Part shown: piece after piece, positions 1,065-43,307 of the stretch | How positions within the stretch are numbered: the first letter of the stretch is position 1 | How the letters are laid out: every line of letters begins with the position of its first letter | Virus record (IMG/VR): IMGVR_UViG_3300036770_004678 | Location: 1 to 43,307 of that record | DNA length: 43,307 nt | Origin: a virus | Direction: 5' to 3' (one strand) | The notes under the pieces: model-generated | Told to the model about the DNA's origin: nothing | The model's input: the letters and a program-made list of their open reading frames with translations, nothing else | The model's database searches: none | Translations under genes and position numbers: made by a program

Positions 1065-2318
1065 ATGCTAACCAACGCCGCGGCGAAAGCCGCCGGTGCG
1101 CAGTCGCGCGCCTACAAGCTGACCGATCAGGGCGGGCTGCACCTGCTCGTGCGGCCGACCGGCACGAAGAGCTGGCAGATGAAGTACCGCTGGCGCGGCC
1201 GTGAGAAGCTGCTCACGCTCGGCCAGTTCCCCGAGGTCAACGTCAACCGGGCGCGGATCCTGCAGGCTGAAGCCAAGGAGCAGCTCGCCAGCGGCGTCGA
1301 TCCCGGCCAGAAGGCCGCTGCCAGCGACACGCTCGAGCAGCTCGCGCGGCTCTGGTACCAGGCGAACCTTCCGGGCTGGTCGACCGCGCACGCCGACGAC
1401 GTCCTCGCCAGCCTCGAGCGCGATATCTTCCCCGAGCTCGGCCGCGCAGCGGCCGACAGCATCACCGCTCCGCAGCTGCTCGCCGCGATCGAGGCGATCG
1501 CCGGGCGCGGCTGCAGGACATCGGCGCACCGGGTGCGTCAGCGGCTTGCCGAGATCTTCGCCTTCGGTCGAGCGCGCGGCCTGGTCACCGGCAATCCGGC
1601 AGATGATCTCGGTGCGGCGATGCTCAGCGCGCCGCCGCCGCGACCGCACGCGGCGCTGATCTCGATCGAGGATTGCCGGGCGCTGCTGGCTGCCTGCGAT
1701 CGCGATACGGGTCGGCCGGAGACGATCGCCGCGAGCGCATTTCTCGCGCTCACCGCGGTGCGCCTGGCGGCGGTGCGCGGGATGCTCTGGGCAGAGGTCG
1801 ACCTAGAGGCGCGCACCTGGACGGTGCCCGCGGCGCGGATGAAGCTGTCCCGGGCCAAGAAGGACGACGCTCGGTACGACCATGTCGTGCCGCTTAGCGC
1901 GGCTGCGGTGGCGGTGCTTGAGGCGGCGCGGGCTAGCTCGGGCGGCCGCCAAGTCGGGCTGGTGTTTCCGGGAAGGATGCTGCGGATTGAGCGGGTGGCG
2001 CGGCAGTCGGACGGGCGATGGTTCTGCAAAGTCTACAAGAAGCCGATCGCGGCCGGCGCGATCCGCGAGCTCTACGATCGCGCGGGCTTCGCCGGCCGGC
2101 ACGTGCCGCACGGGTGGCGCGCCAGCTTTTCGACGATCCTGAATGAGGAGCTCGGCCCGGGCTGGCGCTTCGATATTGATGCGGCGCTCGGCCACGCGGG
2201 CAAGGGCAAGGTCGAGGCGGCCTACAACCGATCGGCCCAGCTGCACCGCCGGCGCGAGCTCTTCGACCGCTGGGGAGCGCTGCTTTTTCCTGACGCTTCG
2301 CCCAGCGTCAGCGCCTGA
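1065..2318 (+). CDS. Tyrosine recombinase, P4-type integrase (DUF4102), number 1
   Basis: The 417-residue protein has an N-terminal arm-binding DUF4102 domain (residues ~5-85, with KLTDQGGLHLLVRPTG and LTLGQFPEV), a core-binding region (~90-180) and a catalytic domain (~195-405). Visible catalytic residues are R233 (TAVR), K260, H349 and R352 (HGWR), H377 and nucleophile Y387 (AYNRS), so it looks intact. The family integrates phages and islands, usually at tRNA 3' ends. The start is supported by AGGA five bases upstream. It is followed by a strong hairpin and faces the minus-strand genes at 2476-4492. Which element it belongs to is unclear. Confidence 0.9.
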   Translation: MLTNAAAKAAGAQSRAYKLTDQGGLHLLVRPTGTKSWQMKYRWRGREKLLTLGQFPEVNVNRARILQAEAKEQLASGVDPGQKAAASDTLEQLARLWYQANLPGWSTAHADDVLASLERDIFPELGRAAADSITAPQLLAAIEAIAGRGCRTSAHRVRQRLAEIFAFGRARGLVTGNPADDLGAAMLSAPPPRPHAALISIEDCRALLAACDRDTGRPETIAASAFLALTAVRLAAVRGMLWAEVDLEARTWTVPAARMKLSRAKKDDARYDHVVPLSAAAVAVLEAARASSGGRQVGLVFPGRMLRIERVARQSDGRWFCKVYKKPIAAGAIRELYDRAGFAGRHVPHGWRASFSTILNEELGPGWRFDIDAALGHAGKGKVEAAYNRSAQLHRRRELFDRWGALLFPDASPSVSA

Positions 2319-3256: not shown

Positions 3257-4492
3257 TCAGGCGGCTGGCGGCGGTCCCGTCAGCAGCTCGGCCCATTCGC
3301 AGGCCAGCTCGCGCCGCCTGCCCATGTATGCCGCGCGGTTGTACGCCGCCTCGACATCGTCGCGCATGTGGGCGAGCATCAGGTCGATGATCGCGCGATC
3401 CTCCGGCCGACCGGCTTTCGCTGCGCGCTCGTTCATGATGGTCGAGAAGCTCGCCCGCCATCCGTGCGGCACGTGACGGCCGCGATACCCTGCATCGATG
3501 TAGACCTTGCTCAGCGTGACGTCGCTGATCGGCTCCACCCGCTTCATGCCCGGGAAGAGCCAGCGCTGCTTCGAGCGCAGTCCGCCGGTGCGCGCCAGTG
3601 CTTCTTTCACCACGGTCACCGCGGCCGGGGCGAGCGGGATGACGAAGTCGAAGGTGCCGTCGCGCTTGTTGCTCGCCGACAGCTTCATCTTCGCGGCCGG
3701 GATCCGCCAGATCGGCTCCTCGCCGTCGAGGTCCTCGAACTCGGTTTTCTCCGCCAGACGCACCGGCCCGGGTCTGGCTGCGGTCAGAGCCAGCAGCCGC
3801 GATGCCAGCTTGGTCGACGGCCACACCCTCGGCATGGCATCGATCTTCCCCAGCAGCTCGCGGACCTCGGGCATTGTGACCAGCGCGGGGCGTCGCTTCG
3901 CCTTCATCGGCGCAAGCGCGCGCCGGACGATCGCCGCCGGGTCGGTCTCCGCCAAGCCCGCCGCGATCGCCCAGACAAACACCTCGCTGAGGTGACCGCG
4001 CACCTCGTGCGCCATTGTCACAGCGCCGCGCGCCTCGATTCGCCGCAGCGTCTCCAGCACGATCGGCGGCGTGATCTCGCGAATCGCCATGCGCCCGATG
4101 AAGGGGAAGGCGTTCGCCTCCAGGCGCGCCAGAACCTCGCCCGCGTAGCGTGGCACAAGCGTCGGTGCTTTCTGCGCATGCCAGGCGCGGGCGATCGCCT
4201 CGAAGGTCTCGCCATAGCGAACCTGCGCCTTCGCTGCCCGGCGCCGTGCCCCCGGATCGGTGCCCCCAAGAAGACAGGCTTTCGCCTCGTCCCGCAATTC
4301 GCGCGCCCGCTTCGCCGAGATCAGCGGCCAGGGGCCGAAGGTCAGGCGCTTCTCCACCCCGTTGAAGCGGTACTTCAAGCGCCACGAACGCGTGCCGGTG
4401 GGCAGCACCTCTAGGTAGAGCCCGCCGCCATCCGCAAGCTTGTATCGCTTGGCCTGGGGGCACGCGTTCCTGATCTGCAGTTCGGTCAGCAA
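3257..4492 (-). CDS. Tyrosine recombinase, P4-type integrase (DUF4102), number 2
   Basis: I chose the TTG at 4492 because GGAAGGGG lies just upstream and the protein then begins LLTELQIRNA, the usual start of this family; a GTG at 4534 is in frame but has a poorer site. It has an N-terminal DUF4102 arm domain (YKLADGGGLYLEVLPTGTRS), a core-binding domain and a catalytic domain with TAAR, KLSASNK, HGWR, AHM and AYNRA, so the R-K-H-R-H-Y set is present. It points away from a tRNA-Gln 3'-end match about 140 bp upstream, the arrangement normal for P4-type elements. It shares HVPHGWRASFSTI with integrase 1 but differs elsewhere. Confidence 0.88.
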   Translation of the reverse strand: MLTELQIRNACPQAKRYKLADGGGLYLEVLPTGTRSWRLKYRFNGVEKRLTFGPWPLISAKRARELRDEAKACLLGGTDPGARRRAAKAQVRYGETFEAIARAWHAQKAPTLVPRYAGEVLARLEANAFPFIGRMAIREITPPIVLETLRRIEARGAVTMAHEVRGHLSEVFVWAIAAGLAETDPAAIVRRALAPMKAKRRPALVTMPEVRELLGKIDAMPRVWPSTKLASRLLALTAARPGPVRLAEKTEFEDLDGEEPIWRIPAAKMKLSASNKRDGTFDFVIPLAPAAVTVVKEALARTGGLRSKQRWLFPGMKRVEPISDVTLSKVYIDAGYRGRHVPHGWRASFSTIMNERAAKAGRPEDRAIIDLMLAHMRDDVEAAYNRAAYMGRRRELACEWAELLTGPPPAA

Positions 4493-4628
4493 GCGGTGCC
4501 CCTTCCGGTGCCCCTGCAGGGGCTGCGCTGTCACGCGATCCGCCGCGACAAATTGCGCGCGATTCGCTTTGACTTTCGGGGGTTTGGCCTAGTCCAAGCG
4601 ACTTTGCGCGACAATATGCGGCAAATGG

Positions 4629-4913: not shown

Positions 4914-5833
4914 TCGGCGGCCTCCGTGACGGGATAGTGTTCACAGCCAACGGCGAAACGTGCGCCGCAGATGGGGCAGGCGCCGGTCGGCGACATGACG
5001 GCCGGGATCGTGCGCAATCGTACGGGAAAGCGCGGGATCACTGCGTCGGCCATATGGCCTCGCGCCCGCTCGCGCTTCAGGGCGGCGAGAAAGGCGGCAT
5101 CGCCCTTCTCGGTGCTGAAGATCTCGCCGAGGGGCGCTTGTTGCCCGATCGGCCGGGCCACGGCAGGTGCCGGTGTCGGTGCTCGCGGCGGGGGCGCAAC
5201 AGGGGTTGGTGCGGGCGCAACGATCGGCGCTTCGGCTGCAACGACGACGGCCGGCTTAGCCGCCGGCGATGTTGACTTCTGTGTCAACGGCTTCGGCTCG
5301 CGCTTCTTCGGCGCGGGCTTCGCAGCAAAGGCGATCGGTTCTCTCACCAGCCTGAAGCCGAAGCGCAGCACCCGCGGATTGTGCTGCACCTTGTACCGCA
5401 CGACGCCGACCAGCTGGGCTTCCTTGTCCCAGTGGGCGGCGAAGCTGGCGCGCGTGCTGAAGCCGAGCTCGGCCACATCTTCGTCGGTGAGGTCCTCAAT
5501 CGGGATCTCGTCCCGGCTGGTGATGACGATGTGGGCGCGGTGCCACTCGCGGCAGAGCGAGCGCGCCGGATGGCGCTGGCCATGCGTCTTCGCCAGATCG
5601 CGGTGGTTGAAGGTGTTGTCGGCCGCGAAGGCCGGTACGGCACCTAGATCCCGGGCGACCGTCGGAGCGTAGCGATCAAACCGCTTCTCTAGGTGGAAAG
5701 GCTCGGCGATCCACAGGCTGTCGCCTTCCTTCACGCGGCAGAAAAAGCTGCTGTTGGGGCGCAGGAAGAACCGCTGCTCGCCGGCGAGCACGCGGCCGAT
5801 CTCGTGGACCCCGATCGCGACCCGGCGGCTCAT
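4910..5833 (-). CDS. ASCH/PUA-like phage protein with C-terminal zinc knuckle
   Basis: The 307-residue protein has an N-terminal ~150-residue domain resembling ASCH/PUA folds (RFFLRPNSSFFCRVKEGD, LWIAEPFHLEKRFDRY, then LCREWHRAHIVITSRDEIP), a long Pro/Ala-rich linker (~175-235), and a C-terminal CPICGARFAVGCEHY motif that could bind zinc. ASCH domains bind RNA or nucleotides; the role in phage is unknown. It overlaps both neighbours by ATGA, so it is tightly coupled to the ParB-like gene. The domain call rests on motif appearance only. Confidence 0.6.
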   Translation of the reverse strand: MSRRVAIGVHEIGRVLAGEQRFFLRPNSSFFCRVKEGDSLWIAEPFHLEKRFDRYAPTVARDLGAVPAFAADNTFNHRDLAKTHGQRHPARSLCREWHRAHIVITSRDEIPIEDLTDEDVAELGFSTRASFAAHWDKEAQLVGVVRYKVQHNPRVLRFGFRLVREPIAFAAKPAPKKREPKPLTQKSTSPAAKPAVVVAAEAPIVAPAPTPVAPPPRAPTPAPAVARPIGQQAPLGEIFSTEKGDAAFLAALKRERARGHMADAVIPRFPVRLRTIPAVMSPTGACPICGARFAVGCEHYPVTEAAE

Positions 5834-7803
5834 TGTGCCGGTTCCTCGTGCAGGGCCTCTGTCTCGATCTGCTTTTGCGCGGCGATAATGTCATCGGATC
5901 CCGAAAAGCCGTCGAAGTCGAAGCCCACTACCGGGTGCACCCAGTTGGGGCTTGCGGCGAGGACGTGGGCGGAAGCGGCAGACAGCGGCTTATCGCCAAG
6001 GTTTCTCCAGCTGCTGAACGCGTGGGCAGGGACGAAAGGTTGGGCGTGTTCGAGTCGCTTCATCTTCGAGAGCAGGCCAGTGAAGTGATAGTCGGGCGTC
6101 CAGGCGCGGCGGGTCTGCTCGGCATCGAGGCCGAGCTCCGCGGCAAGCGCATCGTGAAGCGGGACCTTGAACCCCGGTGCGTTAGCCGAGCGGATGAGCA
6201 TCACGCCGGCGAGGACCGCGGCCGCGCGGTCAAGACGCTCGGGACTTACCTTCAGGAAGAGGGTGAAAGCCTTGCCCAGATCGGCTTCGGTCATCCAGTT
6301 GGCGGCGAGCACCGCCTCTACCTCGGCAGCGAAGGCCTCACGCGCGGTGCTCTGGCAGTAGGTTCTGGCCAGTTCGCGGTCCTCCTTGTCCTCCTGGCCG
6401 TAGCCGGAAGAAAGATGGCGCACCCCCAATTGTGTGCCGCTCTCGCGGCCGAGCTCGACGCGCAGAAGAGTGAAAACCACGAAGTGCAAACCGAGGCCGC
6501 CGCGCCCGGTTGCGTCGCGCAGCAGACCCCAGCGCAGGATGTCGCGGCGGATCGAGCGGCAGACTTCCAGACCGCTGGCTGTAAGCCCGTGCTCGTCGCG
6601 GGCGATCGCGCGCGCATCCTTTCCGTAGGTCGCCGGGTTGGTGAGTGCCTCGGTCTCGATCTCGCGGCCACCCAGCAGCTCCGAGGATGCCCGCGAAGCG
6701 GGTGTCTTTCCCTTCTGGAAATCAACCTGTGCCTTGCGGCTGGCCCACCAGAAGCGCCGGATCACAGCGCCGGTGCTGGCGATCTCGAAGGTGGCGAGGA
6801 TCGCCTCATCCGGAAGATCCTGCGGCAGGTCCGCGTCGGTATCGCAGTGGATCTCCAGAGCGGTGTCGTTGTAGCCGTGACGCTGGGGCGGTTGAACGGC
6901 GAAGCGCAGATCCCGGCGACCGGTGACCTCGCGGACATGGGTGCGCCACTTGTCGAGCTTCTCCTCGGCGAGGCGCTGCAGCAGGTCTTCATCGGCAACG
7001 CGGCCGCGATGATCCTGATCGCCCGCAAAAAGATCGAGCTCGAAGTGGCCGCCGGCGTGGCGGTAAACGTCCACGCCGACAAGGCGCAGGAGCTTGGCGA
7101 GCTGGTGATCGCCGACCTTGTAGAAGGTGCGGATCTGATCGGGGCGGCGATCCCAGTTCGGGCGCCGCGCAAAGTGCTCCCACGCATTGGCCTGCAGCGC
7201 CTGTTCCTCGGTAGCGGCAAAGGCGCGGGCCTGCTCGACATCGATGTCGCCGGCGGCATAGGCCTCGAAGATCGGCGGGTGCAGTTCGCCCAGGCGCGAC
7301 TGCTGAGCTACCCAGCCCGGTTCCTGCCCGAGATTGCGCGCGATCTCCTCGATCGACATCCCGAGGCCGCGCAGGCGCGCGATCGCGGCGTGGACCTCGT
7401 AGCCCTGCAGGTCGCGGCGCAGGAGGTTCTCCGAAAGCGAGAGCAGCACGATCTGCTGGTCGGACAGATCCTTGATCACCGCGCGGATGGGGAAGTCGGC
7501 GGGGAGCAGGCCGCGCCCGATCGCGAGGCGGATCGCGCGGTAGCGACGGCCGCCAGCGAGCACGCCGAAGGAGGCGGGCTCGGTCTGCCCATATTTTGAG
7601 CAGTCCTTCGAGCGCTTCGCCCACTTGGCGCCGTCGGGCGCCGGATGAATGAGCAGCTGCTCGAGCAGGCCCTGCTCGACGATCGAAGCAGAGAGCGCCT
7701 CGACCGCGTTGGCATCCTTCTCGTTGAAGCGAACATTGAGCGGCGAGATCGCCAGATCGGCGAGGGTGAAGGTCAGGGTGGTGTCAGGTGGTTGCTGGGT
7801 CAC
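5830..7803 (-). CDS. Large ParB/Spo0J-family protein (657 residues)
   Basis: The GTG start at 7803 is chosen because GGAGA lies six bases upstream and it follows the previous stop by 14 bases; an upstream in-frame ATG would overlap that gene. The N-terminal ParB/Srx-like domain shows LAGGRRYRAIRLAIG and ENLLRRDLQGYEVHAAIARL, followed by a helix-turn-helix (GMSIEEIARNLG) and a ~450-residue C-terminal region of unknown fold. ParB proteins bind centromere-like sites, and some are CTPases or nucleases. No ParA gene is visible nearby, so a role in partition is uncertain; transcriptional control or DNA processing are alternatives. Confidence 0.85.
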   Translation of the reverse strand: MTQQPPDTTLTFTLADLAISPLNVRFNEKDANAVEALSASIVEQGLLEQLLIHPAPDGAKWAKRSKDCSKYGQTEPASFGVLAGGRRYRAIRLAIGRGLLPADFPIRAVIKDLSDQQIVLLSLSENLLRRDLQGYEVHAAIARLRGLGMSIEEIARNLGQEPGWVAQQSRLGELHPPIFEAYAAGDIDVEQARAFAATEEQALQANAWEHFARRPNWDRRPDQIRTFYKVGDHQLAKLLRLVGVDVYRHAGGHFELDLFAGDQDHRGRVADEDLLQRLAEEKLDKWRTHVREVTGRRDLRFAVQPPQRHGYNDTALEIHCDTDADLPQDLPDEAILATFEIASTGAVIRRFWWASRKAQVDFQKGKTPASRASSELLGGREIETEALTNPATYGKDARAIARDEHGLTASGLEVCRSIRRDILRWGLLRDATGRGGLGLHFVVFTLLRVELGRESGTQLGVRHLSSGYGQEDKEDRELARTYCQSTAREAFAAEVEAVLAANWMTEADLGKAFTLFLKVSPERLDRAAAVLAGVMLIRSANAPGFKVPLHDALAAELGLDAEQTRRAWTPDYHFTGLLSKMKRLEHAQPFVPAHAFSSWRNLGDKPLSAASAHVLAASPNWVHPVVGFDFDGFSGSDDIIAAQKQIETEALHEEPAQ

Positions 7804-7817
7804 TGCGGTTTCTCCGT

Positions 7818-8093
7818 TCAATGGCCTGCCGAGTCGCTGTGCGAGGCGGAGGCGGGGTCGCGGCGGGGATCGAGCAGGCCGCAGCTGCAATCAGCGTGAA
7901 GGATGGTGACGACGGTCGCGTCACGAATGACGGCACGGTGGCCGGTCGGAAGCTTGACGAAGGGCGCGCCGATCTCGGCCGCGAGCTCGAAGGTCGGGCC
8001 GGAAAGGCGTCTGAAGATCTCGTGATCGGACAGGTCCGCCACACACTCGCGGTAGCGATCCATGGCGTGACGGCTGACGATCAGATTATCCAT
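7818..8093 (-). CDS. Small conserved phage protein, 91 residues
   Basis: The protein starts MDNLIVSRHAMDRYRECVAD and ends with a Cys-x-Cys (HADCSCGLLD) and a Ser/Asp-rich tail. The ATG at 8093 overlaps the stop of the repeat protein upstream by eight bases, suggesting coupled translation. The same frame stays open back through the hexanucleotide repeat as poly(Ala-Thr), but that extension is an accident of the repeat and not a sensible protein. I have seen similar small proteins in sphingomonad prophages, but no function is known to me. Confidence 0.65.
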   Translation of the reverse strand: MDNLIVSRHAMDRYRECVADLSDHEIFRRLSGPTFELAAEIGAPFVKLPTGHRAVIRDATVVTILHADCSCGLLDPRRDPASASHSDSAGH

Positions 8094-8673
8094 AGGCCAC
8101 CCCCGGCCCACAGCCGTCGCCGTAGCCGTCGCCGTAGCCGTAGCCGTAGCCGTCGCCGTCGCCGTCGCCGTAGCCGTCGCCGTAGCCGTAGCCGTAGCCG
8201 TAGCCGTCGCCGTCGCCGTAGCCGTCGCCGTAGCCGTCGCCGTAGCCGTAGCCGTAGCCGTCGCCGTAGCCGTAGCCGTAGCCGTAGCCGTCGCCGTCGC
8301 CGTCGCCGTAGCCGTCGCCGTCGCCGTAGCCGTAGCCGTCGCCGTAGCCGTCGCCGTAGCCGTCGCCGTCGCCGTAGCCGTCGCCGTAGCCGTCGCCGTA
8401 GCCGTAGCCGTCGCCGTCGCCGTAGCTCTGGGTGGCACCGTCGTCCGGGAGGGTCTTGGCCGAAACCGCGTCCAGGATGTACTGCCGCTCTTCTCGCGGA
8501 ACCATGGTCAGCATCCGGGAAGCGGGCTCGGCGGCGGCGACCTCGATCGCGTCCGCAACCTCGCGCAGCCGACGGCCGACACCACCATTGCAAGCTCCGG
8601 CCCGTATGATGTCATCGGCTGTCAGCAGTCCTGGTTCGGGCGGGAGGCTCAGACCGCCTGCCATTTGGCCCAC
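8086..8673 (-). CDS. Protein with a 52-unit (Tyr/Asp)-Gly repeat tail
   Basis: The 195-residue protein has an ordinary N-terminal half (LTADDIIRAGACNGGVGRRL, then REVADAIEVAAAEPASRML, VPREERQYILDAVSAKTLP) and then an uninterrupted run of 52 dipeptides, each Tyr-Gly or Asp-Gly, ending CGPGVAYG. The start is GTG at 8673 or ATG at 8664; both overlap the upstream gene. This frame is chosen because its non-repeat part looks like real protein, while other frames give poly(Ala-Thr) or poly(Arg/Leu). Similar Gly-Tyr/Asp/Ser repeats occur in other phage proteins (recollection), with unknown role; a flexible or phase-separating tail is possible. Confidence 0.75.
   Translation of the reverse strand: MGQMAGGLSLPPEPGLLTADDIIRAGACNGGVGRRLREVADAIEVAAAEPASRMLTMVPREERQYILDAVSAKTLPDDGATQSYGDGDGYGYGDGYGDGYGDGDGYGDGYGDGYGYGDGDGYGDGDGDGYGYGYGYGDGYGYGYGDGYGDGYGDGDGYGYGYGYGDGYGDGDGDGYGYGYGDGYGDGCGPGVAYG
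8113..8424 (-). repeat. Hexanucleotide minisatellite, 52 units of KACGGC
   Basis: On the minus strand each unit is TACGGC or GACGGC; only the first base varies and every Gly codon is GGC. The order of the two unit types is irregular, for example runs of four TACGGC beside alternating pairs. Changes by whole units keep the reading frame, so the tract can expand or contract without disrupting the protein. Confidence 0.95.
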
Positions 8674-38524: not shown

Positions 38525-39129
38525 GCCGGATACTTCTCGAGAACGGCTTTGCGCTGCTGCTGGAAAGCGGGTTCAACCTGCTTACCGAGGATGCGGTGGC
38601 GGGCAACAATGTCACCGCCAGCAGCGCCTTTGACCTGACGGGATCCTCGGCCGCCGCGCTCGCGATCGCCGCGCAGGGGGCGGGTGGGCTGGAGATCACC
38701 GGCGCTGGCTCTGCCACGGTCCGCATTGCCGCGACGGGCGCGGGCAGCCTGCCGCTGGGTGGCAGCGCCGTCACGCAGGTGCGGATCACCACCAGCGCGG
38801 CCGGATCGCTGGGCCTTGGCGGATCGGCGCAGGCGAGCTCGGCCGCGATCGTGGCGGCCACCGCCACCGGCACCCTGCCGCTGGGCGGCGCGGGCACCGT
38901 CATGGCGCGGATTGCTACGACCGGCGCGGGCACCATCGATCTGGGCGGAGCCAGCGCTGTCCAGGTGCGGATCGGCGCGGCCGGTTCTGGCGAACTGCCG
39001 CTGGCCGGCACCGCCACCGCCGCCGAGCGCGCGCGGGTGCCGGGCCTGATCTTCAAAGTCGCGCGCGAGCCGAGGCTGTTCCGGGTGCCCCGCGAACAGC
39101 GCATCTTCAAAGTCGCGAGGGCCGCCTGA
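38521..39129 (+). CDS. Beta-repeat fibre-module protein, 202 residues
   Basis: After MSRILLENGFALLLESGFNL the protein is a series of ~22-residue repeats with GAGSLPLGG-type turns (ATVRIAATGAGSLPLGGSAV, TQVRITTSAAGSLGLGGSA, VMARIATTGAGTIDLGGASA, VQVRIGAAGSGELPLAG). A beta-helix or fibre shaft is likely. The C-terminus (PGLIFKVAREPRLFRVPREQ) is shared exactly over its last residues with the partial gene at 1-45. The ATG at 38521 overlaps the preceding stop. Confidence 0.65.
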   Translation: MSRILLENGFALLLESGFNLLTEDAVAGNNVTASSAFDLTGSSAAALAIAAQGAGGLEITGAGSATVRIAATGAGSLPLGGSAVTQVRITTSAAGSLGLGGSAQASSAAIVAATATGTLPLGGAGTVMARIATTGAGTIDLGGASAVQVRIGAAGSGELPLAGTATAAERARVPGLIFKVAREPRLFRVPREQRIFKVARAA

Positions 39130-39211
39130 TGAGCTACGAATTCACCGCACCGATCAAGGATCCTGCCGCCGTGCTGGATCACGGCATGGACTGGAGCGAC
39201 TGGCTGGATGA
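39085..39211 (+). repeat. Direct repeat of the fibre-module end (partner 1-127)
   Basis: Identical over 127 bases to the left end of the window. It covers the last codons of the beta-repeat protein and the first ~28 codons of the adaptor gene. Confidence 0.9.
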
Positions 39212-39416
39212 AGGCGAGACGATCACCGGCACGCCCACGGTTGTGCCGAGCCCGGCCGGGCTGACGATCGGCGCCGTGACCCATGCGAACGGCATAGTCA
39301 GCTGGCGCGTGAGCGGCGGGACGCTGGGGCAGGATTACATCGCCACCTGCCGGGTGACGACGAGCGCAGGCCGCGTGGAAGAGCGCAGCGTGCGGTATCG
39401 GGTGCGGGATCGGTAG
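39129..39416 (+). CDS. Phage fiber-tail adaptor-like protein, copy 2
   Basis: The 95-residue protein matches the copy at 45-332: the N-terminus is identical to DWSDWLDEGE, the middle differs (ITGTPTVVPSPAGLTIGAVT) and the end is the same (ERSVRYRVRDR). It is the last structural gene of element A. No clear terminator follows; 39417-39657 holds no convincing gene. Confidence 0.65.
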   Translation: MSYEFTAPIKDPAAVLDHGMDWSDWLDEGETITGTPTVVPSPAGLTIGAVTHANGIVSWRVSGGTLGQDYIATCRVTTSAGRVEERSVRYRVRDR

Positions 39417-39542
39417 GGGGCTATTTATGCCGCTGACGCTCTTCGATGCACGAATCGTCCTGATCTACGCTGCTCAAAGTTGGATAGCGCTGGTCGACTG
39501 AACGACCGACGCGCGACACCGGAACAACAGCTGAACATCCTC

Positions 39543-39561
39543 CGGGACTATTCCGGGACTC
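39543..39561 (+). repeat. 19-bp direct repeat, left arm (CGGGACTATTCCGGGACTC)
   Basis: The sequence recurs exactly at 39765-39783. Each copy is itself built of two CGGGACT units 11-12 bp apart. The copies lie about 115 bp left and 85 bp right of the tRNA-Pro fragment, so they may be integrase arm-type sites. Confidence 0.7.
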
Positions 39562-39657
39562 GCGCCGCCAGTTCCCGCCATGTTCCGCCGTCAAATGCCA
39601 CGAGCGGCAGTTCCTGCTTGCCTCAAAAGTGCAGGAAACCTAAGGCTCGCCGCCGGT

Positions 39658-39698
39658 CGGGGAGTAGCGCAGTCTGGTAGCGCATCTGCTTTGGGAGC
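39658..39698 (+). other. 5' half of a tRNA-Pro(TGG) gene, probable attachment core
   Basis: The 41 bases give an acceptor strand (CGGGGAG), a complete D arm (GCGC/GCGC), the 5' anticodon stem TCTGC and loop TTTGGGA with anticodon TGG at 39692-39694. After two bases of the 3' stem the match ends and phage sequence follows. The integrase at 39709-40794 ends ten bases beyond. A functional tRNA cannot form here. It is best read as an att core shared between phage and a host tRNA-Pro gene. Confidence 0.85.
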
Positions 39699-39708
39699 CG
39701 AAAAGCTA

Positions 39709-40794
39709 TCAAGCGCTCTCCCCAGCGTTTCTGCGGGTTTCAGCACCCTCCCCTTCCGAATGTTCGGGACTATTCCGGGACTCTGCTGCAGCCATCAGCT
39801 TCCGGACCTCGTCTTCGCTGGTGTGGAAGTAGCGGCGCGTGGTGCGGATGTCGGAGTGGTTTGCCAGGCGCTGGGCGGCCTCGATGCTGCCGAGGCGCGT
39901 CAGCGCGGTGTGGCGCGTGTCGTGGAAGCGGAAGCCTTCAATCCCGGCTTCGGCCAGCGCACGGCGCCATTTGCGGTCCCAGCCCTGCTTGCTGAACGGA
40001 TAGCGCTGGCCCTTGATCCGCTGCACCCGGTCCTTCCGTTTCGGCGCGCTGCGTTCGGCCTTGTAGGTGAACACCTGGGCGCAGACCTTCGGCTGCGCGC
40101 GGATGATCGCGGCGAGGCGCGGCGTCAGCGGGAAGGTGTGGCGCTGGCCGCCCTTGGTGCTGACGGTGGCGCGGGCGTTGACCAGATCGACGTCGCTCCA
40201 GCGCAGGGTGACGATCTCGGCCTTCCTCTGCCCGCTGATCAGCGCGAACTCCACGATCGGCTTCAGGCTTTCGGGCAGGTGATCGAACAGGCGCGCTTCC
40301 TCCTCGGCGCTGAGGATGCGGGTTTCGGGGGCTTTCTCTTTCAGCTTGGCCTCGCGCCAGTCGATCTCGGGGACATCGTAGCCGCGGGCCTCGCACCAGT
40401 TGCAGACCCGGCGCAGCAGCGCGATCTCGCGGTTGACGCTGGCGTTGGACACGCTGGCGCGGCGCTTGGCGATGTATTTGTCGAGGTCGCGCAGGGTCAG
40501 ATCGTGCAGCCAGCGGTTCTTGCCGAGGCCGAGCGCGAGGTTTTCGAGCTGGTAGGATGTGGTGGCGTGGCTGCGCTGGTGCTGGCCCTTGGCCGCGAAC
40601 CATTCGCCGCAGGCCAGATCGAGGGTGATCGAGGGCTTGACCTTCTCGCCTAGCGCGATCTTCCGCCGGATGTCGGCTTCGTACCGTTCTGCATCGCGGC
40701 GCGACGTGCATCCCGTAGAGCCGTGATTCCGGTTACCTTTGAACTGAAAGTCATACTGCCAGAAGCGGCTTTTGGCGGGTTTGTAGACGGACAT
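39709..40794 (-). CDS. Tyrosine recombinase/integrase, number 3
   Basis: The 361-residue protein has an N-terminal arm-type domain (YKPAKSRFWQYDFQFKGNRN, then CTSRRDAERYEADIRRKIA), a SAM-like core-binding domain and a catalytic domain with R190 (SGQR), K214 (TKGG), H291-R294 (HDTRH), H313 and Y322. It differs from the two P4-type enzymes in lacking DUF4102. The C-terminal ~25 residues are a basic, disordered tail encoded by the DNA carrying the right repeat. AGGAG precedes the ATG. The 3' end is ten bases from the tRNA-Pro core, so that is its likely site. Confidence 0.92.
   Translation of the reverse strand: MSVYKPAKSRFWQYDFQFKGNRNHGSTGCTSRRDAERYEADIRRKIALGEKVKPSITLDLACGEWFAAKGQHQRSHATTSYQLENLALGLGKNRWLHDLTLRDLDKYIAKRRASVSNASVNREIALLRRVCNWCEARGYDVPEIDWREAKLKEKAPETRILSAEEEARLFDHLPESLKPIVEFALISGQRKAEIVTLRWSDVDLVNARATVSTKGGQRHTFPLTPRLAAIIRAQPKVCAQVFTYKAERSAPKRKDRVQRIKGQRYPFSKQGWDRKWRRALAEAGIEGFRFHDTRHTALTRLGSIEAAQRLANHSDIRTTRRYFHTSEDEVRKLMAAAESRNSPEHSEGEGAETRRNAGESA
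39765..39783 (+). repeat. 19-bp direct repeat, right arm
   Basis: An exact copy of 39543-39561, lying within the 3' end of the third integrase gene where it encodes part of the SRNSPEH tail on the minus strand. Confidence 0.7.
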
Positions 40795-40979
40795 GAGGGG
40801 CGCTCCTCGCGGGCCTGCCGCTCGATATAGTCGGCGATGTCGTCCTCGCGATAGAGGATTGTTCGGGGGGTCGGGCGGACGTGGCGGATCTGGCCCTTGC
40901 TGCGCAGCGCGCGCAGGGTGCGCGGGGCGATGTGCAGGCGGGCGGCGGCTTCAGCCTCGGTCAGGAGGTTGGGGATCAT
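40650..40979 (-). CDS. HTH_17 excisionase-like protein
   Basis: Residues 1-60 are an excisionase/HTH_17 domain (LTEAEAAARLHIAPRTLRAL, then TILYREDDIADYIERQA). The remaining ~50 residues are read through the start of the integrase gene in another frame, giving a 145-base overlap. They are low-complexity and may be dispensable. It is the natural directionality factor for integrase 3. Confidence 0.78.
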   Translation of the reverse strand: MIPNLLTEAEAAARLHIAPRTLRALRSKGQIRHVRPTPRTILYREDDIADYIERQAREERPSCPSTNPPKAASGSMTFSSKVTGITALRDARRAAMQNGTKPTSGGRSR

Positions 40980-41260
40980 TGGTTTGGTCCCTCATACTGG
41001 TTGGCGGGGCGCTTCCAGCGCACTTCGCGCTGCGGCCAGCTGCCGTGGGTCTGGAGCGGCATCGAGCCGGGATAGGGTGAGCCCCAAGGGCCATAGTCGC
41101 GGCACATACCAGCGACACGGCCTTGCTGGTCGATCTCCCAAGCGGTGCCGACCTGCCAGCTGTGGTACTGCCAGAACCACGCGCGCTTGCCCTTCTCGCC
41201 GAAGTCTTGCGGCGGGAGATCGCGCTCGGCGCCACCACGTAGATCGAGCTGGGCGGTCAT
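40976..41260 (-). CDS. Hypothetical phage protein, 94 residues
   Basis: MTAQLDLRGGAERDLPPQDF, with WFWQYHSWQVGTAWEIDQQG and a C-terminal REVRWKRPANQYEGP. Rich in Trp and Tyr. The stop overlaps the excisionase start (ATGA) and the start overlaps the upstream stop. Function unknown; conserved small early gene by position. Confidence 0.6.
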   Translation of the reverse strand: MTAQLDLRGGAERDLPPQDFGEKGKRAWFWQYHSWQVGTAWEIDQQGRVAGMCRDYGPWGSPYPGSMPLQTHGSWPQREVRWKRPANQYEGPNQ

Positions 41261-41517
41261 CACCCCTCACCCTCCGCCAGTGCGGTTCTCGCGTTGGCGG
41301 CCCAGCGGACCAGCAGCTGCTCGCCCTTGTCGTAGGTGCTGCTGGCCGTGACGCCGGCGAGGCGGATCGAGTAGGTGTTGGTCTGCTGATCGTCGATCTT
41401 GGCACCCATGCCGCGCAGGGCATTCTTGACGGCCTCGGCATCGAAGCTGTCGGCGTTGCTGGCGGCGCGGATCAGATCGGTCGCGGCGATCAGCTTCTTG
41501 CGGGCGGCGGGGGTCAT
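41260..41517 (-). CDS. Hypothetical phage protein, 85 residues
   Basis: MTPAARKKLIAATDLIRAAS, then AEAVKNALRGMGAKIDDQQT and YSIRLAGVTASSTYDKGEQL. Looks like a small alpha/beta protein. Coupled by overlap on both sides. No family recognised. Confidence 0.55.
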   Translation of the reverse strand: MTPAARKKLIAATDLIRAASNADSFDAEAVKNALRGMGAKIDDQQTNTYSIRLAGVTASSTYDKGEQLLVRWAANARTALAEGEG

Positions 41518-41684
41518 TGCGCGTTCCTCCGGTCGCGAGCTTCAAGGGCGGCGGCAACGCGCCTGACAGCATCTTCCGGCGGTTCGAACGCGGCGTTGAT
41601 CGCTCGAACACCTGGATCGGCATTTTTCGCAAGCTCGGCACGCAGCAAGTCGCGCGCCTGATCTTCATAAGAGCGGATGGTCAT
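41514..41684 (-). CDS. Hypothetical small protein, 56 residues
   Basis: A single helical, charged protein: MTIRSYEDQARDLLRAELAK, later RAINAAFEPPEDAVRRVAAA. ATGA overlaps both neighbours, supporting expression. Too short for a family call. Confidence 0.5.
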   Translation of the reverse strand: MTIRSYEDQARDLLRAELAKNADPGVRAINAAFEPPEDAVRRVAAALEARDRRNAQ

Positions 41685-41917
41685 CGGATGGCTGCCTGTT
41701 CGAGCGTCAGTCCCTCGTCGGTCCTGCGATCGAGGGTGACGGTGATGTAAAGGATGGTGTTCCAGTCAGGTCCGCGCTCGACGATGTCCTGAAGTTCCTC
41801 CAGTTCCTCGATGCCGTGTTCGACATCGAGCGGCTCGCCGCTGTCGGTCTGATACCAGATCACGGCTTTCCATCGGGCAGTGGTCGCCTCGGGGCGATCC
41901 ATGACGGCGGGGGTCAT
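41681..41917 (-). CDS. Hypothetical phage protein, 78 residues
   Basis: The protein contains RWKAVIWYQTDSGEPLDVEH, then GIEELEELQDIVERGPDWNT and ILYITVTLDRRTDEGLTLEQ, a compact alpha/beta pattern. Members of this type occur in early regions of alphaproteobacterial phages in my recollection. Function unknown. Confidence 0.6.
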   Translation of the reverse strand: MTPAVMDRPEATTARWKAVIWYQTDSGEPLDVEHGIEELEELQDIVERGPDWNTILYITVTLDRRTDEGLTLEQAAIR

Positions 41918-42090
41918 TGGTGGCCTCGATCTTTTGCTCGGCGCATGGCCGAGATCACAGCTTCAGCCTTGGCATCGTCGATCGCGGCCATCAGAGCGTC
42001 AAAGTCCTCCCTGTCACGTGCGACAACAATTCCGGCGATCACGGCGCGCAACCGTTCGGCTTCGGCCTCAAGTTCGTGGGCGGGGGTCAT
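41914..42090 (-). CDS. Hypothetical small helical protein, 58 residues
   Basis: MTPAHELEAEAERLRAVIAG, then VVARDREDFDALMAAIDDAK: a strongly helical, charged sequence. It overlaps the DUF5131 gene and the next gene by four bases each. Function unknown. Confidence 0.5.
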   Translation of the reverse strand: MTPAHELEAEAERLRAVIAGIVVARDREDFDALMAAIDDAKAEAVISAMRRAKDRGHQ

Positions 42091-43019
42091 GCTCGCACCT
42101 CCGGCATCCCGTTGTGTTCGACGCCGTCGAGCAATCGCCCGGCGCGCTTCTTGCCGACCTTGTGCAGATCCATCGTGCGCTCTTGGCCCGGTGGAACGAT
42201 ACCGATCGGCGCCCACTCGCCCCATTGCTTGAAGAAGAAGTGGACTTCGGCGGCGGCGCATTGGTCGCGCAGGGTGCGGGCCCAATCGGGGTGCATCGGG
42301 CGGGCGTCCTTGCTGCTCTCTCCGCCTGCCACGACCCAATCGATCGTCGCGGTCAGATCGTTGGCGTCCCGCGCCCACATGGCATCGGTAATGTTCACCG
42401 GCCCGAGCAGCGGTTCGGCGCTGATCCAGCGGACGGCGGCGGGGGTGGCGAGCAGATCGGGGATGCGCTCGTCGGCGCGCTGCTGGTCCTCGACCGACAC
42501 GCCCAGCCAGACGTTCGGGAGGGGCAAGAGTGCGCCCCGGTAGACGTGGCCCTGCATCCGCTCGCGGCGCTTGAGTTCGTGCAGGCCCAAGCTCCGGGTT
42601 TGGCTCTGGATTTCGACATGGCGACCAGTCGTCATGTAAACCCGCATTCGGTCAGCCCGCTTCGTCAGCACTTGGAAAGTGTGCTGCGGGCAGAGCGCCA
42701 TCACCGCAAAGATGCGGTCGATCCATACGTCGGGGACGCTTTCGTGGAACAGATCGCCGTGGGCGCAGACGAAGATCATGCGCGGGCGCTTCCAGCGCAG
42801 GGGCTGGTCGAGCCATTGCTCGTTGAAGCGGACCTCGCCCGTCCAGACGTGGTTGCCGTTGACCTCGCGCGTCAGGCCGACGCGGCTCGGGTGATCGGCG
42901 AGGCGCGTGCCGGCCAGCTGCATCGCGTAGCAATTGGTGCAGCCGGGGCTGGTGACGGAACAGCCGGTGATCGGGTTCCAGGTCGCCTCGGTCCATTCGA
43001 TGTGGGTGTTGTCAGCCAT
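42087..43019 (-). CDS. DUF5131 family (phage Gp37/Gp68) protein
   Basis: The 310-residue protein has IEWTEATWNPITGCSVTSPG, CTNCYAMQLAGTRLADHP, FVCAHGDLFHESVPDVWIDR, LTKRADRM and VVAGGESSKDARPMHPDWA, all diagnostic of DUF5131. The Cys cluster C-x6-C-x2-C near residue 20 suggests an iron-sulfur or zinc site, and the family is viewed as radical-SAM-like. Its biochemical role in phages is not established. Confidence 0.92.
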   Translation of the reverse strand: MADNTHIEWTEATWNPITGCSVTSPGCTNCYAMQLAGTRLADHPSRVGLTREVNGNHVWTGEVRFNEQWLDQPLRWKRPRMIFVCAHGDLFHESVPDVWIDRIFAVMALCPQHTFQVLTKRADRMRVYMTTGRHVEIQSQTRSLGLHELKRRERMQGHVYRGALLPLPNVWLGVSVEDQQRADERIPDLLATPAAVRWISAEPLLGPVNITDAMWARDANDLTATIDWVVAGGESSKDARPMHPDWARTLRDQCAAAEVHFFFKQWGEWAPIGIVPPGQERTMDLHKVGKKRAGRLLDGVEHNGMPEVRA

Positions 43020-43158
43020 GGCGGCGCACCTTTTCGATCAGGCGTTCGAGCCAGCTGGGCTGGTGCATCGGCTGAACCGGGCCGAAGCGGGCGCGGCGTT
43101 CGAGGGGGCACATGGTCGCGCCCTGCCCCGTCCAGCGGTGGCGGGTTTCGTAGGTCAT
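43012..43158 (-). CDS. Hypothetical small protein, 48 residues
   Basis: MTYETRHRWTGQGATMCPLE, then MHQPSWLERLIEKVRRHG. The end overlaps the DUF5131 start by eight bases; the start overlaps the partial gene at the window edge. Basic and short; no family recognised. Confidence 0.45.
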   Translation of the reverse strand: MTYETRHRWTGQGATMCPLERRARFGPVQPMHQPSWLERLIEKVRRHG

Positions 43159-43307
43159 TCGGTGGTTTCCTTGTTCGCCATGATCAGTTCCGCAATCTGG
43201 TCGGGCCACACCCACCAGACGGGGAATGCGCCCTCCTCTTCAGCGCGGCGCATATCCCCGCCATTGAGGCAGCGGCGGCCCTTCTGGTCGAAGCAGAGCG
43301 CGGTGAA
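43155..43307 (-). CDS. Phage protein, C-terminal part only (partial)
   Basis: The gene enters from beyond the right edge. The visible 50 residues read FTALCFDQKGRRCLNGGDMR, then AFPVWWVWPDQIAELIMANK. Similar ends are common in small hypothetical proteins of alphaproteobacterial phages in my recollection. The stop overlaps the downstream start. Confidence 0.6.
   Translation of the reverse strand, partial: FTALCFDQKGRRCLNGGDMRRAEEEGAFPVWWVWPDQIAELIMANKETTE

Follow-up and report, generated by a model that had tools for sequence, protein, structure and literature searches.

A probable two-armed phage attachment site built on the 5′ half of tRNA-Pro(TGG), with a host-type promoter-like sequence beside it

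Why would a virus carry half of a tRNA-Pro gene between two identical short repeats, with an integrase gene alongside? The question is posed by the right end of IMG/VR record IMGVR_UViG_3300036770_004678, a linear virus record whose 43,307 nt were analysed in full (the window). An earlier note, made from the sequence alone, suggested either a phage attachment site (attP) or the point where two prophages, inserted in tandem, meet. With a confidence of roughly 90%, we conclude that the region is the attP of a temperate Sphingomonadaceae phage that integrates at the anticodon loop of tRNA-Pro(TGG), and that the tRNA gene rebuilt upon integration is probably driven by the phage. The features on which this reading rests are collected in Table 1.

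Table 1. Features of the proposed attachment site and its immediate surroundings, in window coordinates.
Feature	Position	Strand	Basis
Last tail-module gene, left neighbour of attP	39129..39416	+	phrog_4137; DNA homologue near attR of prophage V2
P arm, first copy of the 19-bp repeat (proposed)	39543..39561	+	Exact repeat; kept 218-232 bp from the second copy in relatives
Tandem element of ~11 bp, between P arm and promoter-like sequence	39571..39589	+	Alignment; present in several tRNA-Pro members
Promoter-like TTGCCT-N16-CTAAGG	39618..39645	+	Sole window match to TTG-N19-CTARRG
att core, 5′ half of tRNA-Pro(TGG)	39657..39698	+	attL/attR identity block in V2
Anticodon loop TTTGGGA, proposed 7-bp overlap (crossover) region	39690..39696	+	Several relatives' att blocks end at the 3′ edge of the loop
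Tyrosine integrase, 361 aa, lambda-Int-like	39709..40794	-	Pfam PF00589 4.5e-25; phrog_1 6e-62; alignment; fold match
P′ arm, second copy of the 19-bp repeat (proposed)	39765..39783	+	Within the coding end of int; motif conserved in 18 relatives
Small HTH_17 / MerR-like protein	40650..40979	-	PF12728 5.8e-11; phrog_66 excisionase 6.8e-8

The repeat CGGGACTATTCCGGGACTC occurs as exactly two exact copies in the 43-kb window, and a third was not found in those 43 kb even when three mismatches were allowed (chance expectation 0.01). The left copy, proposed here as an arm-type Int site (the P arm), is internally composed of two CGGGACT heptamers 11 bp apart. The right copy, read on the minus strand, encodes ESRNSPE at the C-terminal coding end of the integrase. 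Gaps of 96 and 66 bp separate the copies from the tRNA half, and they lie 222 bp apart from start to start. The earlier description of the layout thus holds up well: the truncated tRNA-Pro is a 5′ half of tRNA-Pro(TGG) enclosed by exact copies, the integrase lies on the right with the right repeat inside its 3′ coding end, and the distances given (115 bp to the left, 85 bp to the right) are correct when measured to the outer ends of the repeats. Between the P arm and the promoter-like sequence, the element GTTCCCGCCatGTTCCGCC may be a binding site for Xis or a host factor.

Are the repeats a functional pair? They are 218-232 bp apart in ten distinct two-armed records with tRNA 5′ halves, the window counted among them, and this recurring distance argues strongly for paired arm sites and against a chance duplication. 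The earlier note had envisaged that its reading would fall if the left repeat proved to be part of a decayed integrase 3′ end, a simple duplication not bound by the integrase; the structure would then be a relic. The right repeat does sit in the coding end of int; however, identity between the two copies ends at 19 bp, the left copy keeps its distance from the right one in all ten records, including divergent relatives, and the integrase is full length with every catalytic residue present. The 19-bp limit and the conserved spacing lead us to discard such a duplication, and a relic is very improbable.

The core comprises tc followed by 40 nt of tRNA, with tRNA base 1 at 39658, and ends just beyond the anticodon loop. 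It matches tRNA-Pro in host genomes as well as the identity block of V2. An in-silico fusion of the window half with the 3′ half from a host folds as tRNA-Pro(tgg). ARAGORN found no complete tRNA in the window, and the idea that the phage carries a whole tRNA gene was set aside. The loop is flanked by the stem arms CTGC (39686-39689) and GCCG (39697-39700). Among relatives, attL/attR identity stops with the final base of the anticodon loop in G063, G202, G075 and G008, and runs a few bases past it in V2, G142, G282 and G039. Because identity stops at or just past the end of the loop, we place the crossover overlap within it, with putative exact cleavage points.

In the integrase, residues R190, K214, H291, R294, H313 and Y322 fall in invariant columns or catalytic positions of an alignment with 18 relatives. 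The predicted structure (mean pLDDT 84.5, pTM 0.62) finds its best PDB match in full-length lambda Int (1z1b), and its N-domain is a strand-strand-helix of the type that binds arm sites. The small HTH_17 / MerR-like protein encoded next to it is a probable excisionase.

Other features of the window lie apart from this site. Two further tyrosine integrases (1065-2318, plus strand, and 3257-4534, minus strand) have Arm-DNA-bind_3 domains, are convergent and are distantly alike. No tRNA fragment was found in the window for these P4-like integrases, and a T-arm pattern for their att site matched approximately at 7 places in the window, where chance predicts 10, and thus indicates no site. A ParB-like protein of 686 aa is encoded at 5830-7890 (minus strand), and short tandem repeats occur at 8112-8426, internal to an ORF at 8086-8673 (minus strand). 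Near the right end, 42087-43019 (minus strand) encodes a phrog_2045 protein, and its DNA matches Gp37/Gp68-family or hypothetical genes in many unrelated phages.

The attP reading proposed by the earlier note gains its main support from two complete phages with a two-armed site and from a related prophage that carries one part of this sequence at each of its ends. The complete genome of Sphingopyxis phage VSN-002 (MZ127829.1) has an arm, TTGCCC-N16-CTAAGG, a tRNA-Pro 5′ half and an arm inside int, and its arms are 222 bp apart, exactly as in the window. The integrase relative in this genome (3001-4119 of the analysed locus, L118) is annotated as a 'telomere resolvase', probably a misannotation. 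Synechococcus phage Ssp-JY40 (complete genome, L119, PP438430.1) carries a two-armed attP of this sphingomonad-type family, built on a 5′ half of tRNA-Val and with arms 223 bp apart; what it really infects may be a sphingomonad present in the culture. The viral record V3 is also two-armed. The prophage, V2 (IMGVR_UViG_3300034072_001363), is whole and has an integrase 93% identical to that of the window. Its integrase end consists of int, the P′ arm and the tRNA 5′ half, followed by host DNA that includes the end of a tRNA-Met-like gene, whereas its other end has the P arm and then an intact tRNA-Pro. The far end (attR) is 96% identical to window positions 39541-39701 across 161 bp, and the integrase end is 92% identical to 39656-41264. 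Because the window corresponds to the two split ends of V2 joined together, it is, by this sequence comparison, an attP.

How widespread is the arrangement? Close relatives of the integrase were found in three viral contigs, and two more distant ones in bacterial genome contigs. Across 399 genomes of one host family, 12 carry relatives at E <= 1e-60, and in every one of the 12 the 5′ half of tRNA-Pro or tRNA-Val(TAC) adjoins the integrase end. The far end with an intact tRNA was located in seven chromosomes (G142, G008, G282, G063, G039, G202 and G075); in these and in V2 a dead 5′ fragment is paired with a rebuilt tRNA at the far end, and relatives show the arm sites of both sides divided between attL and attR after integration. 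The rebuilt tRNA is the only Pro(TGG) gene found in those relatives that could be checked, with one intact gene per genome besides the half in the countable tRNA-Pro lysogens (G142, G008 and G282). When viral contigs were scanned with nothing but the 19-mer, without protein information, 24 stretches came back; in nearly all of them the repeat lies at the 3′ end of an integrase or precedes an intact tRNA. They include two-armed sites (with 5′ halves of tRNA-Pro, Val and Thr), integrase-side ends, far ends (with intact tRNA-Pro, Val and Leu) and several contigs that end at or near the int stop codon. In the integrase tree, the Val group forms a single clade nested among Pro members. Two cases have the opposite polarity: in L108, arms about 253 bp apart enclose the 3′ half of a tRNA that reads as tRNA-Arg(CCT), and in Sphingobium bisphenolivorans int is followed by the anticodon and start of a tRNA-Pro 3′ half, visible only to the contig end.

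For the earlier note, two arms suggested an attP or a tandem junction; the attP reading is supported here, although arms alone are no proof. In chromosome G075 (L041 19800-20000), a P arm and promoter precede a tRNA-Val half, yet host-like genes lie immediately to the left, and no other tRNA-Val half was found on that side of the site. Because of these neighbours and the missing second half, two arms can evidently also be a scar, and the G075 site is probably one, left by an older integration.

Could the window then hold two prophages in tandem at the same tRNA-Pro, with the site as their middle junction? Such a junction has a sequence identical to attP, G075 provides a chromosome with a two-armed site, and the window carries two more integrases as well as a second copy of the terminal tail gene at its very start (1-332, 89% identical to 39085-39416). 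However, the window, a contig fragment, contains only one tRNA half and one gene of this integrase type; the left element lacks both, which a tandem member needs, and complete phage genomes carry the same site. In the second tail copy, positions 1-127 repeat 39085-39211 exactly, and the sequences then diverge (89% similarity through 1-332 / 39085-39416). The usual largest k-mer of metaSPAdes is 127, and because the exact overlap has precisely this length, it looks like a k=127 assembly fork. In the assembly graph, positions 1-39084 may close into a 39-kb circle, with 39212-43307 as a branch. The linkage of the attP to positions left of 39085 is thus uncertain, and the join across 39085-39211 untrustworthy. 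An exact-pattern search found no other viral contigs matching the right end of the window or the start-side branch. Taken by itself, the branch 39212-43307 still has phage sequence on both sides of the site; unlike the neighbours of the two arms in G075, this settles the reading as attP. With no second half site in the left part and a fork-like overlap at the start, tandem prophages were rejected as the main reading; this alternative from the earlier note lacks support and is improbable.

What would transcribe the rebuilt tRNA? In host genomes, tRNA-Pro often lies within tens of bp after tRNA-Met, without a clear promoter of its own, and stand-alone tRNA-Pro genes usually have TTGCGN-N16-CTAAGG-like boxes upstream. 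In the window, 12-13 bp separate the match from the tRNA half that follows. A PWM trained on 14 host promoters (upstream regions), with a seed consensus chosen after seeing the phage and host sequences, gives it a score of 17.0 (shuffle p = 0.003). The median shuffle p was 0.007 on 25 phage P-side segments versus 0.54 on P′-side controls, and 0.52 for host genes directly behind tRNA-Met; the shuffles are mononucleotide and the segments related, so a combined p is not a true probability. We propose the match as the promoter of the rebuilt tRNA-Pro. Because a promoter-like sequence of the type seen at host tRNAs stands on the P side, that gene is probably transcribed from phage DNA. The match could instead be incidental, with the site still an attP and the rebuilt tRNA transcribed by read-through from phage genes, since several members lack a good match (the -35 is weak or absent in V3, L063 and L109, and the overall PWM score is poor in L115). 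We find this unlikely, given that the spacing of the match and its distance to the tRNA are those seen in hosts and that Pro, Val and Thr members all provide examples, whereas the P′-side controls have no such match.

From the two-armed site, the split ends in relatives, the intact tRNA at the far end and the promoter match, we infer the following course of events. The integrase would bind the two arm sites and the core derived from the tRNA-Pro(TGG) 5′ half, and strand exchange with the intact tRNA-Pro gene of the host would occur inside the anticodon loop. The phage carries the 5′ half of the tRNA, and therefore integration would replace the upstream region of the gene. The host 5′ half and its upstream region would end beside int as a dead fragment, while the phage 5′ half would join the host 3′ half to rebuild a tRNA-Pro gene with phage DNA upstream, where the P-side promoter-like sequence would drive it. 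Excision would be mediated by the HTH protein.

A broader proposition, for and against which we see equal odds, is that this sphingomonad phage lineage lives by promoter takeover, the P arm providing the sole promoter of an essential single-copy tRNA, and that its relatives dock at a nearly symmetric stem-loop in either direction. If so, loss of the prophage end would be lethal to the cell, and P arms from old integrations would persist as scars. The near-symmetric anticodon stem-loop would let relatives with the same arms dock either way, bringing 5′ halves with a promoter or 3′ halves. Because the family appears to carry a host-type promoter inside its attP, prophage control of an essential tRNA supply, and flips in the direction of attachment sites within one integrase lineage, become testable. 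Being compact (about 240 bp plus int), the att module could moreover be used to integrate DNA in sphingomonads.

So, is this a new kind of site? It belongs to a known but rare kind, the 5′-half tRNA attP: in Islander, a 5′ fragment marks 159 of the 3,919 tRNA islands (PMC4383910), and relatives of the window fit this type, with a dead 5′ fragment upstream and a rebuilt tRNA at the far end. A search of open-access papers turned up neither the sphingomonad family nor its promoter match. Mycobacteriophages that use attB-4 (PMC10865867) likewise have arm sites flanking a common core of 30-45 bp in a tRNA gene and rebuild an intact tRNA at one junction, but their core is the 3′ half and the host promoter is kept, whereas the core in the window is the 5′ half. 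Archaeal pTN3-like elements do use a tRNA 5′ half, and express the rebuilt tRNA from the integrase promoter (PMC8371274); in the window, the core separates int from the P side, which has its own match to a host-like tRNA promoter. The dusA elements and SXT in prfC also integrate at the 5′ end of a gene and bring it a new promoter (PMC8409611), a role that the promoter-like match might fill here, although their targets are protein-coding and this one is a tRNA. In tRNA-dependent lysogeny (PMC10865867), the phage must similarly safeguard an essential single-copy tRNA, but it does so by bringing a whole tRNA gene, and no tRNA is rebuilt; the window contains no whole tRNA gene, and its relatives do rebuild the tRNA. 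Integration into bacterial tRNA genes almost always keeps the host promoter, with very few exceptions among rebuilt tRNAs (review PMC8371274, citing Williams 2002); the sphingomonad family appears to do the opposite, carrying a copy of a host-type tRNA promoter within its attP.
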